Shown here piece by piece: positions 21,219-27,618 of a stretch of 64,000 nucleotides of DNA. The position numbers and the translations under genes are program-made. The notes below the pieces were generated by a model that saw only the letters and a program-made list of their open reading frames with translations, had not been told where the DNA came from and ran no database searches. This stretch comes from Oscillibacter valericigenes (lineage in GTDB: Bacteria > Bacillota > Clostridia > Oscillospirales > Oscillospiraceae). How positions within the stretch are numbered: the stretch's first letter is position 1; the number at the start of each line of letters is the position of its first letter. The DNA lies in assembly GCF_021531915.1 (NCBI RefSeq), contig NZ_JAFBIV010000003.1:1-64000 (forward strand). Direction: 5' to 3'.

Positions 21219-21812
21219 TCACCGCATGTCAGTGCGTTCGCCTGACACAAGATAGCGCGCCTCATCCGACACCATGCTGTCAACCCGGAACCATGGTGCA
21301 AAAAGCTCCGCCAGATCCTCCGGCTTGAGCATCTCCCGGGAGACATGCTCCGCCCGCCCGGCATGGTGTCTGCGGAGAGCCTCTAGCCCCATGCTGTGGG
21401 CCACCGTCAGCCGTCCCCCGGGCTTTACCCACTGGGCCAGGCGTCCAATCAGCCGCTCCGGCTCTTCAAAATGTGGAAAGGCATTGTAAATCACGCAGCA
21501 ATCGCACTGCATCCGGACCGGAATGGTCTCCACGTCTCCGCAGACCACCTCGATCCGTGGGTCATGGAGCTTGGAGGCGGCGATCTTGGCCATCTCAGGG
21601 GAGATGTCTACGCCAATGACCCGGGATACGTTTCGGCTGAGATAATATGGAAAGAGGACGCCGGTGCCGCAGGCCACATCCAGCACCACGCCGTGCTCCC
21701 GGACTCCGGCAGTATCCAGAATACCGTTGATCTTGCCGTCATCCGTCACCATGCGGGCATCCCACTGGGAGGCACAGCGGTCAAAATAGGCGATAATCTC
21801 TTTTTTGTTCAT
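21219..21812 (-). CDS. Class I SAM-dependent methyltransferase
   Basis: 197 residues from the ATG at 21812 (GAGGTGGGC upstream); a longer frame to 21920 overlaps the GntR gene. Motif I is VLDVACGTGVLFPYY, motif II region VIGVDISPEMAKIA, then EVVCGDVETIP and the post-motif VIYNAFPHFEEPERL with KPGGRLTVAH. This is the UbiE/Methyltransf_11 fold; the substrate is unknown. It lies 8 bases after gntR and is probably co-transcribed with it, so it belongs to the regulation unit divergent from the hypB operon. Confidence 0.85.
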   Translation of the reverse strand: MNKKEIIAYFDRCASQWDARMVTDDGKINGILDTAGVREHGVVLDVACGTGVLFPYYLSRNVSRVIGVDISPEMAKIAASKLHDPRIEVVCGDVETIPVRMQCDCCVIYNAFPHFEEPERLIGRLAQWVKPGGRLTVAHSMGLEALRRHHAGRAEHVSREMLKPEDLAELFAPWFRVDSMVSDEARYLVSGERTDMR

Positions 21813-21820
21813 GGCCCACC

Positions 21821-22525
21821 TCAATAATAGATTTGGCGGCTGCCGGAGATGGCCTCCTGGGTACAGTAATCGATCCAGGAAACAGCTCCCAAAATGTCCC
21901 GGTTCCGGATGTGGTCGCACAGGCGGAGGCTGGTCTCATAGAGCATGGGGATGCCGTGGAGGGCGCAGAACCGCTCCCACAACACCAGCACCGAGGAATA
22001 GAAGGACCGGAAAATCAGGGGCAGCAGGGTATTTCCGGACAGCATGGCCAGCTCGTGCTGGAAGGCGAAGGCCGCCTCCGCCGCCTGATGATTGTCGCTG
22101 GCCAGGCGGATGGCCTCCGCCTTTTCCGCCAAAAGATCGATGTCCTCCTCCGTCACATGGGGGATGATGCCGGCTACCGCCAGCTTGTCCAGGGCGTCCC
22201 GCACCTCCAGAATGGAGCGAATCTCTTCGTTCCGCAGATGGCCCCGGTTATAGGTCATGATGGATTTCAGGGTCTCCAGAGTCCCCGCCTGGCGGTAGTC
22301 CGTCACGAAGGTCCCCACCCGGGGGCGGATCTCCAGAAAGCCCCGGCGCTCCAGCTCCACCACACCGCTGTTGACCACCGCCCGGCTGACGCCCATGGAC
22401 TGGGCCAGCTGGCGCTCCGGCGGCAGCTGCTGCCCCACCGGCAGCTCACCGGATAGGATCATGGCCTCGATGTGACTGATGAACAGGTCCTTCAGCGAGG
22501 GGGACACCAGCTTTTCAAATTCCAT
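21821..22525 (-). CDS. GntR-family (FadR/FCD subfamily) regulator
   Basis: 234 residues. The start at 22525 follows AAGGAGGAAG. The N-terminal winged HTH shows LPPERQLAQSMGVSRAVVNSGVVELERRGFLEIRP-type spacing (LPPERQLAQSMGVSR, then LERRGFLEIRPRVGTFV); the C-terminal all-helical FCD domain (about 85-230) usually binds a carboxylate through a metal. A dyad with a FadR-like TGGT-N3-ACCA core sits 21 bases upstream of its start, in the region shared with the divergent hypB operon, so it probably controls both. Confidence 0.87.
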   Translation of the reverse strand: MEFEKLVSPSLKDLFISHIEAMILSGELPVGQQLPPERQLAQSMGVSRAVVNSGVVELERRGFLEIRPRVGTFVTDYRQAGTLETLKSIMTYNRGHLRNEEIRSILEVRDALDKLAVAGIIPHVTEEDIDLLAEKAEAIRLASDNHQAAEAAFAFQHELAMLSGNTLLPLIFRSFYSSVLVLWERFCALHGIPMLYETSLRLCDHIRNRDILGAVSWIDYCTQEAISGSRQIYY

Positions 22526-22545: not shown

Positions 22546-22567
22546 TGTGGTATGACCACATACCACA
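22546..22567. promoter_or_regulatory. GntR/FadR-type operator
   Basis: A perfect 9-bp inverted repeat TGTGGTATG-ACCA-CATACCACA containing TGGTATGACCA. It lies in the intergenic region between gntR and hypB, close to the gntR ribosome site. Confidence 0.75.
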
Positions 22568-22641
22568 AATCATGTTTTTCTTATTATAAATTGGATTTTC
22601 AGAATTTTCAACCATTTTTCACAATTATTTTCGTATTTTAA

Positions 22642-22671
22642 TTGACTTTTTGTGAATTTCTGTGATACATT
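22642..22671 (+). promoter_or_regulatory. Probable promoter of the hypB operon
   Basis: TTGACT (22642-22647) and TACATT (22666-22671) with an 18-base spacer, 56 bases before the hypB start. The GntR operator lies about 75 bases upstream of it. Confidence 0.6.
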
Positions 22672-22726
22672 CGAGGTAGTAACTGGAAATCAATTCATCT
22701 GGTCAAGCCAGAAACGGAGGAATACT

Positions 22727-23395
22727 ATGGCAGGCTTTCAAGTCATCGAGGTGAAGGAGAGCATCTTTGCGGAAAACGACCGGCAGGCAGATGCCCTGCG
22801 GCAGAAACTGAAGGCGGAGAAGACCTTTCTCCTGAACCTCATGTCCTCTCCCGGAGCGGGAAAAACCACCACCCTTTGCCGGACCATCGAGGCGCTGAAG
22901 GGTGAGCTGCGTATCGGCATCATGGAGGCGGATATTGACTCCGACGTGGATGCCCGAACCATCGACGGCACCGGCGTCCGGGCCATTCAGCTCCACACCG
23001 GCGGCATGTGCCACCTGGATGCCGACATGACGAAGCAGGGCCTGGAGGCCTTCGGCACGGAGAACCTGGACCTGGTGGTGCTGGAAAACGTGGGCAATCT
23101 GGTTTGCCCGGCGGAGTTTGACACCGGTGCGGTGAAGAACGCCATGATCCTCTCTGTCCCTGAGGGCCACGACAAGCCCCTGAAATATCCTCTGATCTTC
23201 ACCGTCTGCGACGTGCTGCTCATCAACAAGATCGACGTGCTGCCCTACTTCGATTTTGACATGGAAAAGGTGACGGAATACGCCAGAATGCGCAATCCCA
23301 ACATTCAGATCATCCCCATCTGCGCCAAAACCGGAGAGGGCATCGGCGCCTGGGCGGACTGGCTGCTGCAGCAGGTCCGTGACTGGCAGAGCTGA
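22727..23395 (+). CDS. hypB: HypB nickel-chaperone GTPase
   Basis: 222 residues from the ATG at 22727 after CGGAGG. The G1 loop is SSPGAGKTT (40-48), the metal-binding switch is GGMCHLDAD (C95, H96), followed by LVVLENVGNLVCPAEFD and the NKID base-recognition motif. HypB dimerises with GTP and works with HypA to load nickel into [NiFe]-hydrogenase precursors. It lacks the N-terminal CxxCGC or His-rich extension seen in some species. No hydrogenase structural gene or hypC/D/E/F is in the window; the nickel acceptor in this operon is therefore unclear. Confidence 0.93.
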   Translation: MAGFQVIEVKESIFAENDRQADALRQKLKAEKTFLLNLMSSPGAGKTTTLCRTIEALKGELRIGIMEADIDSDVDARTIDGTGVRAIQLHTGGMCHLDADMTKQGLEAFGTENLDLVVLENVGNLVCPAEFDTGAVKNAMILSVPEGHDKPLKYPLIFTVCDVLLINKIDVLPYFDFDMEKVTEYARMRNPNIQIIPICAKTGEGIGAWADWLLQQVRDWQS

Positions 23396-23416
23396 GAGAA
23401 AGAGAGGAAGTGTGTT

Positions 23417-26161
23417 ATGTCCAACTACGACCCCCATCCCTATCAAATTCCGGAGGATATGCCCAAGCGGGAGATCATTTTGAAGCTGGGCCAGATGATC
23501 ACCAACCGCATGGGGCGGAAGATCACCTATGAGGACGCGGAATACTGGGGCCTCCAGGGCATCGTCACCGATGAGATGGCCGAAGTTGCCCTGAAAATGG
23601 AGGTCCGCAAGCCCAAGACCCTGGCCCAGATTGCCAAGCTTACCGGCAAGGACCCGGAGCATCTGGAAAAGCTGCTGTTTGAGATGTGCATGGTGGGCCT
23701 CATCGAATACAACTGGGAAGACCTGGACGGCAAGAATCCCAATCACGAGAAGCGCTATGTGGTCCCCCTGTTCGTCCCCGGCAGCGCCGAGTTCACCAAT
23801 ATGAATGCCAAGCAGCTGGAGGAGCACCCGGAGCTGGGCAAGTTCTTCGAGCGCATGAGCTTTGAGGCGTTGGAGCGGGTCACCCCCATGGTGCCTCCCG
23901 GCGGCGCAGGCATCGGTATGCACGTTATTCCCGTGGAGAAGGCCATCCCCACCGAGAGCCAGTCCATCTCCATCGAGCACATCTCCCACTGGCTGGACAA
24001 GTACGAGGGCCAGTACGCCAAGTCCCCCTGCTCCTGCCGCCTGTCCCGCCGGACCTTTGACGAGGGCTGCGCCGACGACCCGGAGGACTGGTGCATCGCC
24101 GTGGGCGACATGGCAAACTACATCGTGGAGACCAACCGGGGCAGCTACATCACCAAGGAGGAGGCCCTGGAGATCTTCCGCAAGGCGGAGGACAACGGCT
24201 TCGTCCACCAGATCACCAATATCGACGGCGAGCAGAAAATTTTCGGCATCTGCAACTGCAACGTCAACGTCTGCTACGCCCTGCGGACATCCCAACTCTT
24301 CAACACGCCCAACCTGAGCCGCAGCGCCTATGTTGCCAAGGTGGAGCCGGAGAACTGCGTGGCCTGCGGCCGCTGCGTGGAATACTGCCCCGCAGGTGCC
24401 GTGAAGCTGGGTCAGAAACTTTGTACCAAGGACGGCCCCGTGGTGTATCCCCGTCACGAGCTGCCGGACGCCGCCAAGTGGGGGCCGGAGAAGTGGGACG
24501 TAGACTACCGGGACAACAACCGCATCAACTGCTATGACACCGGCACCTCCCCCTGCAAGACCGCCTGTCCCGCCCACATCGCCGTGCAGGGCTATCTGAA
24601 GCTGGCGGCCCAAGGCAAGTTCACCGAGGCGCTCCAGCTCATTAAGCGGGAGAATCCCTTCCCCGCCGTCTGCGGCCGCATCTGCAACCGCCGCTGCGAG
24701 GACGCCTGCACCCGGGGCACCGTGGACCAGGCGGTAGCCATCGACGAGGTGAAGCGGTTCATCGCCCAGCAGGACCTGGACAGTGCCACCCGGTTCATTC
24801 CCCCGGTGGTGACTCCTACCCTGAAGGGCGGCTTCTCCCAGAAGATCGCCGTCATCGGTGCCGGTCCCGCCGGTATGAGCTGTGCCTACTACCTGGCGGA
24901 GAAGGGCTACAAGCCCACAGTGTTCGACAAGGCCGCCCGCCCCGGCGGCATGCTGATGAACGGCATTCCCTCCTTCCGTCTGGAAAAGGACGTGGTGGAC
25001 GCGGAGATCGACGTGCTCCGGGAGATGGGCGTGGAATTCCGCTGCGGCGTGGAGGTCGGTAAGGATGTCACCATCCAGCAGCTCCGGGAGGAAGGCTACC
25101 AGGGCTTCTATGTGGCCATCGGCCTCCAGAGCGGCGGCAGACTGAACATCCCCGGCGACGACGCCCAGGGCGTCACGGCCGGTATCGACTTCACCAAGCA
25201 GGTGAACCTGGAAGGCCCGCAGAAGCTGGAGGGCAAGGTGGTGGTCATCGGCGGCGGCAACATCGCCTGCGACGTGGCCCGCACCGCCGTCCGCTGCGGC
25301 GCGGAAGTCACCATGTACTGCCTGGAGGGCTATGACGACATGCCCTGCGGCGAGGAGGACCGCTCCGAGTGCGAGAAGGACGGCATCACCATCCGGGCGG
25401 GCTGTGGTCCTGTGGAGATCACCTCCGCCGACGGCAAGTGTACCGGAATCACCTTCCGCAAGTGCCTGTCCGTGAAAAACGCCGAAGGCCGCTTCGCCCC
25501 CACCTTTGACGATTCCGTCACCGAGACCGCCGACTGTGCCACGGTCCTCTACTGCATCGGCCAGAAGGCCGACTGGGGCCAGCTGCTGACGGGCACCCGT
25601 GTGGAGCTGAACCCCAACGGCACGGTCAAAGCAGACCCCTTGACCCTCCAGACCGCCGAGCCGGACATTTTCGTGGGCGGCGACGCCTATACCGGCCAGA
25701 AGTTCGCCATCGACGCCATTGCCGCCGGCAAGGAGGGCGCCGTGTCTCTGCACCGCTTTGTGCAGCCCCACAGCAGCCTGACTATCGGCCGCAACCGCCG
25801 CCAGTTCATTGAGCTGGACAAGAAGAACCTGGATATCGGCAGCTATGACGACACCCCCCGCCAGCGCCCCGGCTACAACGAGGCCCTGCGGAAGACCTTC
25901 TCCGACGAGCGCACCGGCTTCACCGCCGAGCAGGTGAAGATCGAGACCGCCCGGTGTCTGGGCTGCGGCGCCTCCGTGGTGGACCCCAACAAGTGCATCG
26001 GCTGCGGCGTCTGCACCACCAAGTGTGGCTTCGATGCCATCCACTTGTTCCGGGAGCGTCCGGAGTGCAGCACCATGGTGCCCATCGAGGATAAGCTGAA
26101 AGCTGTGTTCCCCTACATGGTGAAGCGGGGGCTGAAGATCAAGTTTGGAAAGAAGGCATAA
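23417..26161 (+). CDS. 914-aa FAD/NAD(P) oxidoreductase with several Fe-S modules
   Basis: Residues 1-110 include a winged-helix-like stretch (TLAQIAKLTGKDPEHLEKL). Cysteine groups follow at C205, C207, C218, C226 and C279, C281, C286 in an unfamiliar layout. A [4Fe-4S] ferredoxin motif CVACGRCVEYC occupies 314-324, then a DPYD/GltD-type N-terminal cluster module (C380, C384, C419, C423, C427, C431). FAD binds at IAVIGAGPAGMS (477-488), NAD(P)H at VVVIGGGNIACDV (608-620), and a C-terminal pair of clusters lies at 847-864. The middle is like GltD/NfnB, passing electrons from NAD(P)H to Fe-S centres. It sits between hypB and hypA; the electron acceptor is unknown. Confidence 0.85.
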   Translation: MSNYDPHPYQIPEDMPKREIILKLGQMITNRMGRKITYEDAEYWGLQGIVTDEMAEVALKMEVRKPKTLAQIAKLTGKDPEHLEKLLFEMCMVGLIEYNWEDLDGKNPNHEKRYVVPLFVPGSAEFTNMNAKQLEEHPELGKFFERMSFEALERVTPMVPPGGAGIGMHVIPVEKAIPTESQSISIEHISHWLDKYEGQYAKSPCSCRLSRRTFDEGCADDPEDWCIAVGDMANYIVETNRGSYITKEEALEIFRKAEDNGFVHQITNIDGEQKIFGICNCNVNVCYALRTSQLFNTPNLSRSAYVAKVEPENCVACGRCVEYCPAGAVKLGQKLCTKDGPVVYPRHELPDAAKWGPEKWDVDYRDNNRINCYDTGTSPCKTACPAHIAVQGYLKLAAQGKFTEALQLIKRENPFPAVCGRICNRRCEDACTRGTVDQAVAIDEVKRFIAQQDLDSATRFIPPVVTPTLKGGFSQKIAVIGAGPAGMSCAYYLAEKGYKPTVFDKAARPGGMLMNGIPSFRLEKDVVDAEIDVLREMGVEFRCGVEVGKDVTIQQLREEGYQGFYVAIGLQSGGRLNIPGDDAQGVTAGIDFTKQVNLEGPQKLEGKVVVIGGGNIACDVARTAVRCGAEVTMYCLEGYDDMPCGEEDRSECEKDGITIRAGCGPVEITSADGKCTGITFRKCLSVKNAEGRFAPTFDDSVTETADCATVLYCIGQKADWGQLLTGTRVELNPNGTVKADPLTLQTAEPDIFVGGDAYTGQKFAIDAIAAGKEGAVSLHRFVQPHSSLTIGRNRRQFIELDKKNLDIGSYDDTPRQRPGYNEALRKTFSDERTGFTAEQVKIETARCLGCGASVVDPNKCIGCGVCTTKCGFDAIHLFRERPECSTMVPIEDKLKAVFPYMVKRGLKIKFGKKA

Positions 26162-26551
26162 ATGCACGAATTGGGCATCGTATTCCACGTCATCAAGTCC
26201 GTGGAGGAGGTGGGGCGGCAGAACTGCCTCACCCGGGTCAGCGCCGTGACGCTGGAGATCGGGGAGGTCTCCGGCGTGGTGCCCTCTTACCTCACCGACT
26301 GCTGGGACTGGGCGGTGAAGAAGTCCGACCTGCTCCGTGGAGCGGAGCTGCGGACGGACATCCTTCCCGCCGTGACCCACTGCGACGGCTGCGGGAAGGA
26401 CTATCCCACCGTGGCACACGGGAAGACCTGTCCCCACTGCGGCAGCGGAGAGACATGGCTGCTGACCGGTTCTGAGCTGAACATCAAGGAGATCGAGGTG
26501 CCGGACCCGGAGCCGCCGGAAACGGGCGAAATTCCGCAACAAATGGGATAA
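26162..26551 (+). CDS. hypA: HypA nickel-insertion protein
   Basis: 129 residues. The N-terminal Met-His-Glu that binds nickel is intact (MHELGIVFHVIKSVEE), then LEIGEVSGVVPSYL, and the zinc site CDGCG ... CPHCG (about 78-101). The C-terminal tail of about 15 residues after INIKEIEV-like NIKEIEV is longer than usual. It starts directly after the stop of the oxidoreductase gene (TAAATG). HypA hands nickel to hydrogenase large subunits with HypB; here it is co-transcribed with an oxidoreductase and a DUF5692 gene instead. Confidence 0.92.
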   Translation: MHELGIVFHVIKSVEEVGRQNCLTRVSAVTLEIGEVSGVVPSYLTDCWDWAVKKSDLLRGAELRTDILPAVTHCDGCGKDYPTVAHGKTCPHCGSGETWLLTGSELNIKEIEVPDPEPPETGEIPQQMG

Positions 26552-26583
26552 TCGGGAGAAAATATTACTAGGAGGAATCGGAT

Positions 26584-27618
26584 ATGTTGTTCCAACTCTA
26601 CGGCGAGACCGCCGGTTATCAGCTTTTGGGCTTTGTGCTGGTGTTCACCTGTCTGGTGTTGGCAAACGAATTTGCCCGCCGCACCAAGACTGGCGGCATC
26701 TTCTGTTTCCTGGTGCTGCCCGCCGCGCTAACGGTGTACTTCATCGCTATCTACGTGGGCGCCGCCGCCGGAGCGGAGTGGGCGCTGAACAACCAGACCT
26801 ACACCAACATGAACAGCTGGTTCCACTACGCCAAGCTGTACGCCGCCACCGCCGGGTGCATCGGCTTCATGATGCTGAAATACAAGTGGAGCATCGGCAA
26901 GACAGAGTGGTTCAAGGTGTTTCCCTTTGCAATCGTTGCCATCAACATCCTCATCGCTGTGGCCAGCGATTTCGAGTCCGGCATCCGGGGGGCCATGGCC
27001 ATGGCGGAATTCGGAGACCGCTGGTGGCTCTCCTCCGAGAACGTGTGGCTGTACGGCGGCTGGTGGAACTGGGTCAACGGCATCGCCGGCATCATCAACA
27101 TCTTCTGCATGACGGCCTGGTGGGGCATTTACACTTCCAAGGACCAGAAGGATATGCTGTGGCCCGACATGACCTGGTGCTACATCCTGGCCTATGACCT
27201 TTGGAACTTCGAGTACACCTACAACTGCCTGCCTACCCACTCCTGGTACTGCGGTCTGGCCCTGCTGCTGGCTCCCACCTTTGCCAACCACTTCTGGAAT
27301 AAGGGCGGATGGATCCAGAACCGTGCCAATACCTTGGCCCTGTGGTGCATGTTCGCTCAGGTGTTCCCCCTGTTCCAGGACAAGAGCGTCTTCACTACCA
27401 TCCCCTCCATCTACGCCGACGGCTTCATGGATCCTGCCATCCGGCCTACCGCTGCCGATCCCACCGCTCAGGGCGTGGTGTCCATCATTGCCCTGGTGGT
27501 GAATGTGGTCATCCTGGCCACCATCATCAAGCGGGCAAAAGCGCAGAAAAAGAACCCCTACAAGCAGGAGGTCTTTACCGACCAGAAGGACTTCCAGGAG
27601 GCCATGGCGAGAGTCTGA
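26584..27618 (+). CDS. DUF5692-family polytopic membrane protein
   Basis: 344 residues with about nine hydrophobic segments and an unusually high Trp, Tyr and His content, for example DRWWLSSENVW, GGWWNWVNGI, WPDMTWCYILAYDLWNFEY and CLPTHSWYCGLALL. The C-terminus is cytosolic and Lys-rich. The family has no known function. The Trp/Tyr/His-lined helices could hold a cofactor, quinone or metal; that is a guess. GGAGGAATC precedes the ATG and the gene closes the hypB-oxidoreductase-hypA run, so it is a candidate partner of the Fe-S flavoprotein at the membrane. Confidence 0.75.
   Translation: MLFQLYGETAGYQLLGFVLVFTCLVLANEFARRTKTGGIFCFLVLPAALTVYFIAIYVGAAAGAEWALNNQTYTNMNSWFHYAKLYAATAGCIGFMMLKYKWSIGKTEWFKVFPFAIVAINILIAVASDFESGIRGAMAMAEFGDRWWLSSENVWLYGGWWNWVNGIAGIINIFCMTAWWGIYTSKDQKDMLWPDMTWCYILAYDLWNFEYTYNCLPTHSWYCGLALLLAPTFANHFWNKGGWIQNRANTLALWCMFAQVFPLFQDKSVFTTIPSIYADGFMDPAIRPTAADPTAQGVVSIIALVVNVVILATIIKRAKAQKKNPYKQEVFTDQKDFQEAMARV

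Follow-up and report, generated by a model that had tools for sequence, protein, structure and literature searches.

What do two hydrogenase maturation genes do in a genome in which no [NiFe]-hydrogenase large subunit is found? The question is posed by a four-gene operon of Oscillibacter valericigenes, located in a stretch of 64,000 nucleotides that we call the window (assembly GCF_021531915.1, contig NZ_JAFBIV010000003.1, positions 1 to 64,000). HypA and HypB normally mature [NiFe]-hydrogenase; here, their genes adjoin those for a 914-residue FAD/NAD(P)/Fe-S flavoprotein (FP) and for a membrane protein of DUF5692, a Pfam family of unknown function. Our answer is that the operon is probably a module for the biohydrogenation of polyunsaturated fatty acids, in which DUF5692 would be a membrane linoleate isomerase and FP, loaded with nickel by HypAB, would reduce conjugated linoleic acid (CLA). 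This pair of activities is proposed because the 4 among 49 DUF5692 genomes that have no FP belong to Limosilactobacillus and Bifidobacterium, groups reported to go no further than CLA. FP is taken as the putative reductase because its domain order and CxC...CxC site are IsrA-like, because IsrA is tied to a conjugated diene, and because conjugated dienes are substrates of the known CLA reductase (CLA-R) from Butyrivibrio fibrisolvens. The isomerase reading of DUF5692 draws also on the gene content of Bifidobacterium and Roseburia compared with their reported products, on the fact that the Bifidobacterium breve isomerase, bbi, is a single gene, and on the description of such isomerases as membrane-bound.

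The conversion of linoleate to CLA and the subsequent hydrogenation steps have long been measured chemically, while their genes are uncertain. This route, which leads from linoleic acid through CLA to vaccenate, influences how much trans fat and CLA milk and meat contain, and as a gut lipid conversion it is also of medical interest. A fatty-acid biohydrogenation reading of such a unit was not found in the literature searched.

The hyp genes and their putative nickel partner

The operon comprises the following features:

22727..23395, plus strand: hypB, nickel GTPase chaperone without a His-rich N-terminus (TIGR00073, 238.6 bits; cut-off 121.2)
23417..26161, plus strand: FP, IsrA-like FAD/NAD(P) Fe-S oxidoreductase, 914 residues (PF14691, PF07992, two Fer4-type stretches)
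24029..24274, plus strand: N-terminal Cys site of FP (C205, C207, C218, C226, H264, C279, C281, C286), a proposed Ni/Fe-S active site
26162..26551, plus strand: hypA, nickel metallochaperone (MHE start, two CxxC motifs; PF01155, 108.9 bits; cut-off 28.9)
26584..27618, plus strand: DUF5692 polytopic membrane protein (PF18948, 480.5 bits; cut-off 27)

The tight unit described by an earlier, sequence-only reading of this DNA is borne out: in the order hypB, FP, hypA, DUF5692, all on the plus strand, the genes are separated by gaps of 21, 0 and 32 nucleotides (hypB stop 23395, FP start 23417; FP stop 26161, hypA ATG 26162; hypA stop 26551, DUF5692 start 26584), such that hypA begins directly after the FP stop. 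For hypB, the mechanically assigned GTG at 22652 is probably too far upstream; the ATG at 22727, which lies behind GGAGGAA (22716-22722), fits better.

Does the nickel go to a hydrogenase encoded elsewhere? The assembly (2.49 Mb, 97.68% complete) holds one HypA; neither the [NiFe] large subunit (PF00374) nor HypD is present in it, with HypC, HypE, HypF, urease, CODH and LarA not searched for. The absence of a hydrogenase, noted earlier for the immediate locus, thus holds across the whole assembly for those two families. Among relatives, PF00374 matches occur in 3 of 49 DUF5692 genomes (the window's own and 48 reached through loci), leaving 46 with none, and the match is full-length in one, a Collinsella tanakaei genome; HypD is found in 5 of 55. 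That is, the DUF5692 genomes mostly lack HypD (50 of 55) and a full-length large subunit (48 of 49), and a destination in a distant hydrogenase, which the sequence-only reading had offered as one option, is not supported. We therefore rejected the candidate of a displaced hydrogenase maturation set, the window's genome having neither HypD nor PF00374 and its relatives being mostly alike. The normal role of HypAB speaks for displaced genes serving a [NiFe]-hydrogenase elsewhere, as do the few genomes that do have HypD or the full-length subunit, but we give the idea almost no credence: FP, hypA and hypB stay together with or without DUF5692, and for the window's genome it is contradicted unless the roughly 2% missing from the assembly holds an entire hyp and hydrogenase set. 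By profile score, the window's HypA is a HypA in the Pfam sense and lies outside the hydrogenase HypA equivalog of NCBIfam (TIGR00100, 66.8 bits vs. a cut-off of 88.1).

FP is a better candidate recipient. The unusual cysteine set at residues 205-286, flagged earlier as a possible metal site, is real: in an alignment of 60 FPs that includes the window's (57% identity or higher for 55 of them, 47-51% for the other 5), C205, C207, C226, C279, C281, C286 and H264 are present in every sequence and C218 in 59. The site lies in a region for which no solved relative was found at E 0.1 (residues 1-300). Solved relatives, of the NfnA/GltD/dihydropyrimidine dehydrogenase type, cover residues ~359-852 only; the recognized domains are PF07992 (98.3 bits) and PF14691 (74.4 bits), with ferredoxin-type stretches at 306-328 and 854-875.

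A published precedent exists. IsrA, the putative isoprene reductase of Acetobacterium wieringae, is described by Kronen et al. (2023) as having a GltD/NfnB-like core, four canonical [4Fe-4S] sites, and a Cys6 site (“cluster V”) with two CxC motifs that is the proposed acceptor of nickel from HypA/HypB; it is isoprene-induced, and its host is reported to have no [NiFe]-hydrogenase (PMC10134865). Isoprene is an unactivated conjugated diene; the same report also links IsrA to 1,3-butadiene and suggests terpenes for its homologs. Among the neighbors of 988 IsrA homologs it gives frequencies of 0.73 for hypA, 0.56 for hypB and 0.4 for DUF5692. Homology and context support the nickel role that the sequence-only reading had suggested for FP; its description of FP as an unrecognized partner does not stand, and the idea, although sound, is not new, because Kronen et al. 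proposed it for the IsrA family. On this comparison, FP as a nickel-dependent partner of HypAB, with the 205-286 cysteines as its putative metal site, is supported. The adjacency of hypA, hypB and DUF5692 and the nickel site are already in that paper; what is new here is a probable role for the DUF5692 branch.

Co-inheritance of DUF5692 and the flavoprotein

DUF5692 and FP are co-inherited, often without being linked. Of 245 genomes sampled across the class, 12 hold DUF5692 and 16 hold FP (E <1e-60); FP is present in 10 of the 12 DUF5692 genomes vs. 6 of the 233 others (Fisher p 2.8e-12). In the genus of Roseburia inulinivorans, 25 of 62 genomes have both genes, 4 have one only and 33 have neither, with totals of 27 for each; one DUF5692 genome, G431 (labels with G and L denote genomes and loci surveyed), has fragments only. 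The pairing in this genus yields a Fisher p of 7.5e-13, or 8.4e-12 with G431 counted as absent, values that serve only as a guide because genomes of one genus are not independent. G412, G418 and G256 are among the genomes in which the two genes lie apart; in some others they are close together. In a presumed R. hominis genome they are 1.3 Mb apart, and in R. inulinivorans (L031) they are on different contigs; the species names of the R. hominis, R. intestinalis and Bifidobacterium genomes are inferred assignments, marked here as “presumed”.

Where the genes are clustered, their order varies. A scan of named genomes listed at least 589 stretches and at least 560 DUF5692 relatives, of which the best 80 were kept, so the following counts describe close relatives. 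Within the fetched stretches, FP accompanies DUF5692 at 52 of these 80 loci, HypA at 50, HypB at 41 and GntR at 16 (at least 150 bits). The order hypB-FP-hypA-DUF5692 is found at 29, and several others occur; it can be argued from such shuffling that the association is selected.

The informative exceptions are genomes with DUF5692 alone. The N-terminal domain of FP is missing from 4 of the 49 DUF5692 genomes: Limosilactobacillus ingluviei, L. rudii, L. vaginalis and Bifidobacterium scaligerum, which are the sole members of these two genera among the 49. Six Limosilactobacillus loci and one Bifidobacterium locus gave no match to FP, HypA or HypB, the latter two not having been searched for in the rest of these genomes. 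Because DUF5692 is kept in these FP-less genomes at 68-71% identity to the window's protein, it presumably has a function of its own.

What kind of protein is it? The predicted structure of this hydrophobic sequence (pLDDT 93.1, pTM 0.89) has nine helices of 15 or more residues, and no known fold stood out in comparison with it. Across 67 aligned members, the mean column identity is 59%, and the invariant residues include N28, E29, R32, D190, D195, K240 and R247. Conservation is almost complete at H81, H219 and four cysteines. This near-invariance, together with the adjacency to hypAB and the neighbor frequency among IsrA homologs (PMC10134865), would suit a nickel transporter or an accessory partner of HypAB and FP, and the sequence-only reading had proposed the membrane protein as a nickel partner. 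We regard this as very unlikely: no Cys or His is invariant among the 67, and DUF5692 is present without FP in Limosilactobacillus and Bifidobacterium genomes, at whose fetched loci neither hypA nor hypB was matched.

In a quick tree of the family, made without support values, the window's protein nests among those of gut Clostridia and the actinobacterial members form their own group. The Limosilactobacillus members cluster together among those of Clostridia, a grouping that suggests horizontal transfer.

Several further occurrences were observed. A mobilizable (MOBV) plasmid of Subdoligranulum variabile (L217, OY725877.1, 9001-10029) bears both FP and DUF5692, with no features annotated there in PLSDB. 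A second, distant DUF5692 group is 28-44% identical to the window's protein (L003, L004, L008, L009, L010, L012); in these six genomes, the FP is 47-49% identical in four (L159, L160, L162, L163), 63% in one (L164) and 75% in one (L156). This group perhaps has another substrate. Mobiluncus, Arcanobacterium and Gordonibacter (P0266, P0276, P0316) have DUF5692 proteins 79-80% identical to that of B. scaligerum; to our knowledge, CLA formation has not been reported for these three genera. Latilactobacillus curvatus (L218 5995-6924, CP117684.1) has a distant member (35.5%) with no FP or hyp genes annotated beside it; strain LMG 13553 of this species is listed as a maker of conjugated linolenate (PMC13365329).

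Species pattern and reported fatty-acid phenotypes

Do the holders of these genes make the expected products? Lactobacilli and bifidobacteria are reported to convert linoleate to c9,t11-CLA, and rumen butyrivibrios to continue to vaccenate (PMC12254105, PMC4478896). For L. ingluviei, L. rudii, L. vaginalis and B. scaligerum themselves, we found no report of CLA formation. The DUF5692 cut-off is passed by 33 of 112 Bifidobacterium genomes. DUF5692 is present in the presumed B. breve (G307, at L123:7325-8317), B. dentium and B. pseudocatenulatum genomes, and a profile search did not find it in those of presumed B. adolescentis, B. bifidum, B. longum and B. angulatum. Matches are weak in the presumed B. 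catenulatum and B. kashiwanohense genomes, and weak and below the cut-off in presumed B. animalis. What looks like a decayed remnant lies in the presumed B. kashiwanohense genome (L120 781-2034, minus strand), with weak matches in G311 and G333. FP, sought at E 1e-20, is in none of these ten genomes. Among reported CLA makers B. breve ranks first, and the figure for B. dentium is up to 29% (PMC12254105); strains of B. pseudocatenulatum raise colonic CLA in mice (PMC10730214). By genome, DUF5692 presence agrees with three of three reported makers and four of four others, several of the latter having CLA reports.

Roseburia provides the counterpart for the second step. Vaccenate is listed for R. 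inulinivorans and R. hominis, and only hydroxy acids for R. intestinalis (PMC11723137). R. inulinivorans and the presumed R. hominis genome have both DUF5692 and FP. The presumed R. intestinalis genome (G414:C1:2831096-2832064, L213) has an FP N-terminus at 74% and no DUF5692, and would, from its gene content, be a natural reductase-only case.

Knockout of bbi in B. breve CCFM683 reduced CLA to 0%, and the complemented strain reached 85.62% conversion (PMC11812354). In Butyrivibrio and L. reuteri, according to PMC12254105, the c9,t11 isomerases are bound to the membrane. BBI-like genes (at least 40% identity) are reported from rumen metagenome-assembled genomes of Paludibacteraceae (5), Lachnospiraceae (2) and unclassified taxa (3) (PMC10019597); DUF5692 likewise occurs in Lachnospiraceae and in loci titled Bacteroidales, Cacconaster and Cryptobacteroides (L071, L068, L074), a circumstantial fit.

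A number of observations weigh against the biohydrogenation module. The species split in Bifidobacterium is not clean, because CLA has been reported for other species as well: reports exist for B. adolescentis, B. bifidum and B. animalis subsp. lactis, and for B. catenulatum, B. longum and B. pseudolongum (PMC11723137), with one B. longum strain reaching 43% (PMC12254105). Strain variation or a second CLA route must be assumed. The putative L. reuteri-type isomerase is described as a 625-residue, 70.5-kDa integral membrane protein, and several such linoleate isomerases (LAIs) have been re-annotated as MCRA hydratases, another known CLA route (PMC13365329); as reviews describe them, the lactobacillus LAIs are larger proteins than DUF5692. 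The B. breve linoleate transcriptome, as far as consulted (PMC6955684), names no isomerase-like gene as induced. The likeness of DUF5692 to bbi and the Butyrivibrio isomerase is one of description, and that of FP to CLA-R one of reaction; the reported cla-r gene (Fukuda 2007) may be another protein. The pairing of the genes is also imperfect. In the class sample, FP-hypA-hypB occurs without DUF5692 in 6 of the 16 FP genomes, and 2 of the 12 DUF5692 genomes lack FP (G110, G170; both matches at contig ends). Pairing is broken in 4 of the 62 Roseburia-genus genomes (FP only in G414 and G465, DUF5692 only in G443 and G461), and the fragments in G431 belong here as well.

Could FP act instead on another unactivated conjugated diene or polyene (isoprene, terpenes, carotenoids, dietary polyenes), with DUF5692 as a membrane anchor or a means of substrate uptake? 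The substrates linked to IsrA and suggested for its homologs (PMC10134865) would allow this, as would the FP triads without DUF5692, but we consider it unlikely: the 68-71% identity of DUF5692 in FP-less Bifidobacterium and Limosilactobacillus bespeaks a function of its own, and among the species compared its holders largely track the reported formation of CLA and vaccenate. Less probable still is a lipid other than linoleate (e.g. hydroxy- or oxo-fatty acids, or retinoids) as the substrate on which the two proteins act one after the other. The same distribution data would fit such a lipid; the phenotype match that was found, however, is to CLA and vaccenate.

Proposed pathway and known systems

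We infer the following course for the biohydrogenation module. Within the membrane, DUF5692 would convert linoleic acid, and probably also alpha-linolenic acid, by isomerization into a conjugated diene of the c9,t11 type (c9,t11-CLA from linoleate). HypB and HypA would load nickel into the N-terminal centre of FP, to which electrons would pass from NAD(P)H through FAD and the [4Fe-4S] clusters; at this Cys-rich centre FP would reduce the conjugated diene to a trans-11 monoene, vaccenate. A bolder version, to which we give somewhat less than an even chance, would make DUF5692 the classical membrane linoleate isomerase family and FP a new type of HypAB-matured Ni/Fe-S enzyme that hydrogenates unactivated conjugated C=C bonds of fatty acids, with CLA handed over at the membrane.

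Transcription of the unit may be controlled from its upstream flank, which contains:

21821..22525, minus strand (divergent): GntR-family regulator with an FCD domain (PF00392, 63.2 bits; PF07729, 42.7 bits)
22546..22567, no strand: palindromic operator candidate TGTGGTATG-ACCA-CATACCACA, a perfect 9-bp inverted repeat with a 4-bp centre
21219..21812, minus strand: S-adenosylmethionine (SAM)-dependent methyltransferase, 197 residues (Pfam Methyltransf_11, 73.2 bits), directly behind gntR

The divergent GntR gene with an operator, as first described, is confirmed as a gene and a perfect 9-bp palindrome, the latter a candidate operator. For gntR, the ATG at 22525 is preferred, as the mechanical open reading frame, extending to 22615, probably starts too far upstream. 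The palindrome lies between gntR and hypB, near promoter-like sites at 22611-22583 (minus strand) and 22642-22671 (plus strand); TGTGGTATG-N4-CATACCACA has this sole perfect copy in the genome, and two further places match with three mismatches. The GntR/FCD protein would repress the unit through it, with release on binding of an effector that is perhaps a fatty acid. Membership of the methyltransferase in the unit is doubtful. Among the open reading frames compared, its only relatives within the same cluster are 67-69% identical, in L015 (after DUF5692) and L156 (after HypB).

If the proposed pathway is true, DUF5692 and the hypAB-linked FP would be metagenome markers for its two steps, a nickel requirement of biohydrogenation would become testable, and R. 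intestinalis, with FP and no DUF5692, would be predicted to reduce supplied CLA and not linoleate. If the Ni-enzyme reading is true, the genes behind much of the biohydrogenation in gut and rumen would be known, and nickel would gain a further biological role.

How does the unit compare with known systems? DUF5692 resembles the linoleate delta12-cis, delta11-trans isomerase of Butyrivibrio and B. breve (bbi) in being a predicted membrane protein; it is encoded in the presumed B. breve genome, and, in the species set compared, those that hold it largely coincide with the CLA makers on record. FP, in its proposed reaction, resembles CLA-R of B. fibrisolvens: both would carry out an NADH-linked reduction of conjugated, not isolated, dienes. 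We know of no report of nickel in CLA-R. The B. fibrisolvens enzyme is reported to reduce conjugated linolenic acid (CLNA) and t11,c13-CLA, and not the non-conjugated t11,c15-18:2 (PMC2654759), and NADH and rumenate are consumed 1:1 in CLA reduction (PMC4478896). FP is present in the vaccenate makers R. inulinivorans and presumed R. hominis, its link to NADH being by domain. In 2015, a genome study had no means of searching for the reductase: although a sequence had been reported, the enzyme was, by that study's account, in no family database (PMC4478896).

For IsrA (VUZ27132.1), the likeness is one of anatomy as described. Both proteins have an FAD-NAD(P) core with PF14691, extra ferredoxin-type clusters (289-300 and 848-877 in IsrA), and an N-terminal CxC...CxC site (C205xC207 and C279xC281 in FP, plus C226 and C286). 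Both operons adjoin hypA and hypB in a genome with no [NiFe]-hydrogenase found. They differ in that the isr operon, as described, has two hypA genes, a 4Fe-4S ferredoxin and no DUF5692, whereas in the window's unit hypA is single, and both DUF5692 and a GntR regulator are present. With NfnA/NfnB, GltD and dihydropyrimidine dehydrogenase, FP shares the core at ~359-852; it differs from them in its 300-residue, Cys-rich N-terminal domain.

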